Source: a virus. Taken from it: a stretch of DNA of 21,091 nucleotides. The stretch is from IMG/VR virus record IMGVR_UViG_3300020183_000552, positions 1-21,091 of that record. One strand, written 5' to 3'. Under the pieces are notes generated by a model. The model saw only the letters and a list, made by a program, of their open reading frames with translations, did not search any database and was not told the origin of the DNA. A program made the translations under genes and the position numbers. Shown here piece after piece: positions 18,652 to 20,189 of the stretch. The number at the start of each line of letters is the position of its first letter. Position 1 is the first letter of the stretch.

Positions 18652-18978
18652 ATGGGTAAGCACTACTTATTAAATGTTTATGGATGCTCGTTTGTTCTTT
18701 TGAACAACGAGCATTATCTTATAGATCTATTGGAGAATGCAGCTGCTGCAAGTGGAGCAACTGTATGCCAAACAATATTCAAAAAATTTGAACCACAGGG
18801 CGTTACTGTTTTGTGTTTGTTATCCGAGAGTCACATAAGTATTCATACCTGGCCAGAGGAGGGTAAGGCTGCCATAGATGTTTATACTTGTGGTGATTGC
18901 AATCCTAAGATCGGTTGCGATATAATCATTGAGCAACTTAGAGCAGAAAAACACACACTTAGTTATATTGAAAGATAA
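18652..18978 (+). CDS. speD: S-adenosylmethionine decarboxylase proenzyme-like (SpeD), 108 aa
   Basis: Pyruvoyl-dependent decarboxylase of the prokaryotic SpeD type, normally making decarboxylated S-adenosylmethionine for spermidine synthesis. Autocleavage is expected between Glu59 and Ser60 in SESHISIHTWPE, where Ser60 becomes the pyruvoyl group. His65 and Cys80 correspond to the processing and catalytic His and Cys of Thermotoga-type SpeD (Ser63, His68, Cys83). The IDVYTCGDC segment is also conserved. At 108 residues it is slightly shorter than the roughly 130-residue bacterial form. No spermidine synthase gene is seen here, so aminopropyl transfer would rely on the host or another locus. 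Some phage SpeD homologues are reported to have changed substrate (ornithine or arginine); that is an alternative here. It follows the 63-aa gene by one base. Confidence 0.92.
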   Translation: MGKHYLLNVYGCSFVLLNNEHYLIDLLENAAAASGATVCQTIFKKFEPQGVTVLCLLSESHISIHTWPEEGKAAIDVYTCGDCNPKIGCDIIIEQLRAEKHTLSYIER

Positions 18979-18979
18979 T

Positions 18980-18990
18980 GCTAAATAACC
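18980..18990 (+). promoter_or_regulatory. Late promoter-like GCTAAATAACC
   Basis: CTAAATA is a frequent variant of the cyanophage late -10 box. It lies two bases after the SpeD stop and 15 bases before the microprotein ATG. Its context (TAAATAACC..., then TGGAAAA) is repeated before the next gene at 19067. Confidence 0.5.
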
Positions 18991-19004
18991 CTATATGGAA
19001 AACT

Positions 19005-19076
19005 ATGAGATCAACTAATAGGGGATGCTGTGGGGCAGGATGTCCTGATTGCCCCTTCCGACCTAAAAATAAATAA
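19005..19076 (+). CDS. Cysteine-rich microprotein, 23 aa (CCGxGCxxCPF)
   Basis: A complete 23-codon frame, MRSTNRGCCGAGCPDCPFRPKNK, running from an ATG after a GGA-type ribosome site (TGGAAAACT) to TAA. The four cysteines in RGCCGxGCxxCPF match the core of small domains such as DUF5522, where the motif is embedded in a longer protein. Here it stands nearly alone, flanked only by basic residues. The spacing (C-C-x3-C-x2-C) would suit metal binding. It has its own late-promoter-like motif, and the gap between speD and the next gene is otherwise unexplained. It is below the length used by usual gene finders. The translation is inferred; the motif match is seen. Confidence 0.65.
   Translation: MRSTNRGCCGAGCPDCPFRPKNK
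19032..19055 (+). other. RNA hairpin within the microprotein gene
   Basis: GGGGC (19032-19036) pairs with GCCCC (19051-19055), and AGGA (19037-19040) with TCCT (19043-19046), with a GATT bulge on one side. This gives a nine-pair GC-rich stem. No T-run follows, so it is not a standard intrinsic terminator. It may simply reflect Gly/Cys/Pro codons. Confidence 0.4.
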
Positions 19077-19078
19077 CC
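19067..19078 (+). promoter_or_regulatory. Late promoter-like AAATAAATAACC
   Basis: An AATAAATA box overlaps the end of the microprotein frame and lies 18 bases before the next ATG. It resembles the motif at 18980: both read TAAATAACC, then TGGAAAA shortly before the start codon. Confidence 0.5.
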
Positions 19079-19096
19079 TTACATCTGGAAAATCTT

Positions 19097-19423
19097 ATGC
19101 TCTCTACACAATATCGTTTACGCTTAGAAGAAATCTGCCGAAAGATCGTCTTACAAGAAGGTGTGAGTTTAGAGGATATGATTTGGGCAGAGAAGCTTGC
19201 AAAAGCAAATCGTTCTGCTGGAACGATACTTCGTCAGGCAAGAAGAAAAGCAGAAAATCCTGATATGCAAGAAGGAGATTTAGATGATTTTTTAAATCAA
19301 CTTGACATCGGTGGCACTGGTAACGAAAGATTCGGAAGAAGAGGATTTAATAGTGTAGATGATATTGTAGACTTCTTTGGAGAAGGTAGAGATAAACCAG
19401 ATGATTGGAGGCAAAGAGACTGA
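19097..19423 (+). CDS. Hypothetical acidic/basic small protein, 108 aa
   Basis: The N-terminal half is a charged, likely helical pair (TQYRLRLEEICRKIVLQEGVSLEDMIWAEKLAKANRSAGTILRQARRKAE). The C-terminal half has acidic, Gly-rich linkers (GDLDDFLNQLDIGGTGNERFGRRGFNSVDDIVDFFGEGRDKPDDW). The short hydrophobic-acidic segments (LDDFLNQL, VDDIVDFFG) resemble the kind of tail that contacts sliding clamps or RNA polymerase in T4-like late-transcription proteins, but I see no firm match and do not name it gp33. The start has GGA seven bases upstream and a late-promoter-like box close by. Its stop overlaps the next start by one base. Confidence 0.65.
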   Translation: MLSTQYRLRLEEICRKIVLQEGVSLEDMIWAEKLAKANRSAGTILRQARRKAENPDMQEGDLDDFLNQLDIGGTGNERFGRRGFNSVDDIVDFFGEGRDKPDDWRQRD

Positions 19424-19659
19424 TGCAAGCAGTATTGTATTCTAAAGATAACTGTCAGGAATGTGATAGAGCCAGAATGCTTTTAAACAGTCTTGATATT
19501 TCTCACTTAGAGTATAAACTTTCAAAAGACTTTAATGAGAAACAATTTATTTCTGAGTTTGGATCAGAAGCATCATTTCCGCAGGTAGCAATAGACTATA
19601 TGCATGTTGGTAATTTAAAAGAAACACTTCAATTTTTGAAGGAAAAAAATTTAATATGA
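19423..19659 (+). CDS. Glutaredoxin-like protein with CQEC site, 78 aa
   Basis: Thioredoxin-fold protein: an initial strand (AVLYSKDN), Cys11-Gln-Glu-Cys14 in place of the usual CPYC, and Pro53 in SFPQVAID as the cis-proline. The Gly-Gly glutathione motif of the other glutaredoxin in this window is reduced to HVGNLKET. A redox role is likely but the acidic active site and lost GG may change partner or potential. The start at 19423 is the ATG of a TGATG overlap; an in-frame TTG six codons earlier is unlikely. The downstream gene also overlaps by ATGA. Confidence 0.75.
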   Translation: MQAVLYSKDNCQECDRARMLLNSLDISHLEYKLSKDFNEKQFISEFGSEASFPQVAIDYMHVGNLKETLQFLKEKNLI

Positions 19660-20177: not shown

Positions 20178-20189
20178 CTCTAGTATAAT
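20161..20189 (+). promoter_or_regulatory. Strong host-type sigma70 promoter (TTGACG-17-TATAAT)
   Basis: TTGACG (20161-20166) and a perfect TATAAT (20184-20189) are 17 bases apart. The expected start near 20196 gives a leader of about 17 bases before the ATG at 20213. This is the early-promoter type used by host RNA polymerase, in contrast with the late boxes further left. Confidence 0.8.

Follow-up and report, generated by a model that had tools for sequence, protein, structure and literature searches.

A probable mobile microgene encoding a cysteine-rich peptide behind unrelated genes of marine T4-like cyanophages

DUF5522 (PF17653) is a domain of unknown function whose cysteine core, GCCGxGCxxCP(F/Y), has the spacing CC-x3-C-x2-CP. 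FeoB_associated (PF12669), a family of membrane proteins, also contains a short cysteine-rich stretch. Among phages, capsid and tail proteins extended by +1 frameshifting have been described for the Listeria phage PSA (PMC5009743), where a pseudoknot or a stop accompanies the proline codon on which the shift occurs. The cyanophage late promoter has the consensus NATAAATA (PMC2984593). In the open literature we found nothing on DUF5522, on frameshifting in cyanophages or on a peptide such as the one described here.

In the window, i.e. the whole stretch of 21,091 nucleotides of viral DNA that was analysed, a complete reading frame of 23 codons and a stop (19005 to 19076, plus strand; translation MRSTNRGCCGAGCPDCPFRPKNK) fills the gap between two genes on the same strand. 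Upstream, and outside the element, is speD, encoding S-adenosylmethionine decarboxylase (18652 to 18978; PF02675, E = 2e-35; phrog_3125), and downstream is a gene for a 108-aa protein of unknown function (19097 to 19423; phrog_507, E = 9e-40), followed by a glutaredoxin gene (19423 to 19659; PF00462) as the second gene after the microgene. The first-pass annotation had proposed an unannotated, stand-alone cysteine-rich microprotein here, with a ribosome-binding GGA of its own. This GGA is indeed found 5 nt before ATG 19005 (18997 to 18999, plus strand), as a weak element, and together with the ATG it resembles the GGAAAA..ATG leader of the 108-aa gene. An in-frame extension from ATG 18978 (18978 to 19004, plus strand) would give a 32-aa product and overlap the speD stop codon (TAATG). 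We favour ATG 19005, since several other contexts of the family have starts 3 to 6 codons before the core. A seven-codon frame, MENYEIN (18995 to 19018), overlaps the start of the microgene. The conserved core, GCCGAGCPDCPFRP, comprises 14 codons (19023 to 19064, plus strand); its cysteines are invariant and its changes fall mainly on third codon positions.

A late-promoter-like box had also been ascribed to the microgene. The box GCTAAATA is present (18980 to 18987, plus strand), but it is one mismatch off the consensus and is weak evidence by itself. The exact consensus, AATAAATA, lies ahead of the 108-aa gene (19068 to 19075, plus strand) and overlaps the stop codon of the microgene. TAAATA was not enriched in the window, with 35 occurrences against 34 expected. 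The longer TAAATAACC has just two occurrences in the window, ahead of the microgene and ahead of the next gene, compared to 0.4 expected; two or more were obtained in 5 of 100 shuffles.

The best Pfam match of the peptide was DUF5522, with 18.3 bits (E = 0.0026; 15.9 bits in the six-frame search), below the curated cutoff of 25 and covering only the 17 C-terminal positions (32 to 48) of the 48-position profile. The N-terminal part of the domain is absent from the phage peptide. The DUF5522-like cysteine spacing that had been recognised from the sequence is thus real, in the window, in the relatives and equally in a DUF5522-like protein of 74 aa (L308, RRGGCCGSGCRHCPYHQE), but with a partial match below the cutoff it does not amount to membership of the family. 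The match to FeoB_associated was likewise partial (16 bits, cutoff 27) and, unlike that membrane-protein family, the phage peptide has no membrane segment. No match was found in PHROG or NCBIfam at E up to 10, nor in the PDB.

A tblastn search with the peptide gave matches in 107 phage records, almost all of them from Synechococcus phages; about 105 of these records are genuine and share the common core GCCG(A/S)GC-x-x-CP(F/Y)RP. The matches in Klebsiella, Enterobacteria and Pseudoxanthomonas phages look like chance, and that in SynMITS9220M01 is of a wrong-frame, signal-peptide kind. When this wrong-frame class was removed, scans of IMG/VR brought the family to 211 copies in 149 distinct sequence contexts, isolates included. 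The excluded class came from the scan allowing AGY serine codons, in which 93 copies turned out to be wrong-frame readings of an unrelated signal-peptide gene (MKKIIAS.. LVAVVAALPALS); some of them (L189, L195, L242 and L298 among others) stayed in the lists of the HF and other contexts and were not counted as evidence. In many loci of this cyanophage gene (L190 to L307) the second frame spells GCCGSGCPTCPFRP, which we take provisionally as a wrong-frame coincidence. In GTDB (84,980 species) the strict pattern was found at two loci only, one being a DUF5522-like gene of an Ignavibacteriaceae genome, the other an apparent phage contig binned with a Rhodobacteraceae MAG (L309, 2500 to 2900, minus strand), where the element lies behind a Cys/Gly-rich protein ending KISYM.

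The genes directly upstream of the copies are unrelated to each other: gp23 (the major capsid gene), psbD, two small genes near psbD, a Cys/Gly-rich gene and speD. Copies follow gp23 in ACG-2014a, S-MbCM100 and S-RIM12, and the small genes near psbD in ACG-2014d, e, g, h, i and j, S-CAM4 and S-MbCM25; ACG-2014g has two copies of the element. IMG/VR added psbD itself, the Cys/Gly-rich protein ending KISYM and free-standing copies. In one contig (L245) two copies lie about 630 bp apart (at 2578 and 3210), the first of which follows gp23 or the other does, the remaining copy starting with GTG. The frame that the first-pass annotation had noticed at the speD site is therefore real there, but it recurs behind many cyanophage genes, mostly gp23 and the small genes near psbD. 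The microgene frame was not annotated in any phage record inspected and, as about a hundred cyanophage genomes carry copies, a whole family of real phage microgenes has very probably been overlooked.

Loci found by the search pattern give a biased pN/pS, since the pattern itself sets the letters at codon positions 1 and 2. Pattern-found pN/pS was therefore replaced by samples fetched via a neighbouring gene and by codons outside the pattern. The sample of the LY gene (ending ..LEKLYDKE) contained 15 unique loci with the motif and 39 without, and that of the HF gene (ending ..GKHF....) 34 with and 27 without. All four cysteines were kept in every motif copy of both samples, and the residues G, P, F/Y, R and P were likewise conserved. 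Minor letters at codon positions 1:2:3 were distributed 3:6:40 behind the LY gene (13 unique copies) and 2:5:43 behind the HF gene (17 unique copies). Behind gp23, 20 of 21 unique copies kept the cysteine at position 10, which is outside the search pattern; the remaining one is a distant IMG/VR copy (L170), in which a 1-bp insertion in a run of C breaks the frame. Close relatives of the window copy are nearly identical to it in sequence, and in these neither frame breaks nor lost cysteines were found. Among relatives fetched via speD, only one (L390) carries the motif, a near-copy of the window recognised by exact DNA. We regard the frame as very probably coding.

The way in which copies could start differs between contexts. 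In the LY context an ATG in the frame of the motif lies within the last codons of the neighbour (TATGAC, Tyr-Asp), and this start is tied to the element: it is present in 15 of 15 loci with the motif and in 5 of 39 without (p = 1.8e-9). GAG, GGAG or GGA precedes the start in 15 of 18 pattern-found copies. At the end of the LY gene in L474 to L476, the ATG and AATAGAGGA are kept and the rest is lost, with ATGATAAAGAATAGAGGATT followed by a stop; these look like relics of the element. In the psbD context, an in-frame GTG is found six codons before the core in eight of nine copies, while the ninth has an ATG. Eight of the nine also show a purine-rich match to a ribosome-binding sequence upstream (AGGA, GAGG or AGGAGG). 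Here the C-terminal codons of psbD itself appear to form the ribosome-binding sequence and the GTG start of the overlapping microgene (L116, L040, L045). One copy (L024) has a strong ribosome-binding site of its own, AAAGGAG followed by ATGAGTAGAGG. HF starts are mixed (ATG, GTG, TTG and CTG); no association of a start codon with the motif was found for the HF gene, and the ACG-2014d copies in this context have no nearby start. The element's T-AGA supplies the neighbour with its TAG stop codon, and the HF gene ends in TAG always with the motif and never without it.

The element is repeatedly gained and lost. On a tree combining motif-bearing and motif-less gp23, the presence of the motif changes 15 times, and at least nine of these changes are forced by well-supported branches. 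The block of about 125 bp containing the window copy (18977 to 19104, plus strand) is identical or one or two mismatches apart in three other contigs (L021, L057, L111), where the DNA downstream is about 80 % identical. In two of these (L021 and L111) the block is preceded not by speD but by a gene similar to the window's 73-aa gene at 20189. That the block is near-identical while the surrounding genes differ points to its recent exchange as a unit.

The copies behind gp23 give most weight to another reading, in which the peptide is a C-terminal tail added to the upstream protein, chiefly gp23, by +1 frameshifting at the stop codon. Of 68 unique gp23 loci, 66 have the motif in the +1 frame relative to gp23; the spacers measure -4, -7, -10 or -16 nt, lengths that are multiples of three apart. 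About 10 changes of spacer state are counted on the tree of motif-bearing gp23, and each of the two copies outside this frame has a GTG. These 68 loci show no conserved ATG, GTG or TTG start, and in three of the copies (L012, in the S-RIM12 genome KX349312, L169 and L245) the frame is closed and contains no start whatsoever, so independent initiation does not explain every copy. The position in the +1 frame after the capsid gene parallels the extended capsid protein of phage PSA (PMC5009743). Unlike PSA, however, the gp23 copies have AUG UGA and no conserved stimulator was seen; AUG preceding UGA-U is not among the known slip sites and differs from the CUU UGA C of RF2. TGA was ruled out as a special signal behind gp23, as gp23 without the motif also ends mostly in ATG TGA, and in motif-less gp23 ending in TGA the +1 frame upstream is mostly open as well. 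At several gp23 loci (e.g. L009, 2500 to 2570, and L012, 2490 to 2560) the motif directly follows the gp23 stop. The spacer types may have been inherited by recombination and are then not fully independent, and ready-made junctions could keep the frame. The other contexts have starts, which in the LY context are tied to the motif, and the window copy lies outside the +1 frame of speD and, unlike the PSA extension, has its own ATG. We consider frameshifting as the general explanation unlikely. It is slightly less improbable, but still doubtful, that the element is used in two ways, as a free microprotein elsewhere and, via +1 recoding at the gp23 stop, as a cysteine-rich, putatively metal-binding tail on some capsid subunits.

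The remaining alternatives concern what the frame is rather than how it is translated. A tiny frame with four cysteine codons could be a leader peptide on which ribosomes stall when cysteine is short, regulating expression of the neighbouring gene, and a glutaredoxin gene does lie two genes downstream in the window. Yet in many contexts, above all behind gp23, it leads directly into a terminator-like hairpin (fold of L009) with no downstream gene to control; moreover G, P, F/Y, R and P are conserved besides the cysteines, which makes such a role very improbable. We give marginally less credence still to the idea that the element is conserved as non-coding DNA or RNA (a promoter, a terminator or a structured RNA) and is open by accident. 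The long near-identical DNA block in the window group would suit it, and the fold behind gp23 is strong (z = -3.4 in L009), although this fold includes the terminator, the stem of which overlaps the last codons. The variation, on the other hand, sits at the third codon positions of the peptide frame, and in the window no unusual RNA fold (z about 0) and no Rfam family match was found. Short frames are common, and with 61 frames of at least 20 aa overlapping the last 3.6 kb of the window, a frame of 23 codons means nothing by itself. The window frame is nevertheless raised above chance by the protein-level matches in phage records and by the four cysteines kept in samples that were not chosen by the motif; the recurrence of one and the same peptide behind unrelated genes within a phage family, with this conservation, already refutes a chance frame, the probability of which we regard as negligible.

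We therefore consider the element to be probably a genuine stand-alone microgene of marine T4-like cyanophages, a mobile gene for a cysteine-rich peptide. The proposal of an unannotated, translated-looking microprotein in the window is upheld by the conservation of the family and the missing annotation in the records inspected, and stand-alone translation of the window copy is highly likely. According to this reading, the very small element would settle at the 3' ends of other genes, which are often highly expressed, and borrow their transcription. Beside some genes its ribosome-binding sequence and start codon would be embedded in the last codons of the neighbour, with the T-AGA of the element serving as the neighbour's stop codon, while the window copy would bring its own promoter-like box and start. 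Translated from ATG 19005, it would yield a peptide of 23 residues, probably expressed late in infection. The four cysteines (CC-x3-C-x2-C), all within nine residues, may make one compact site and, together with the analogy to the DUF5522 core, make the peptide a candidate for holding a metal or a cluster, or for reacting through its thiols. By this analogy, its task in the infected cell might be to bind metal (zinc or an iron-sulphur cluster) or to serve as a small thiol peptide, a role that we propose tentatively, at slightly under even chances.

Cyanophages abound in the sea, and the search for auxiliary genes in their genomes has been close, yet a gene of about 23 codons went unannotated in every record inspected. 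Its core is conserved to the residue at differing sites, among them the 3' ends of gp23 and psbD. The capsid-linked copies raise the concrete question of how they are translated, and the family offers a testable case of phage microproteins as auxiliary functions.
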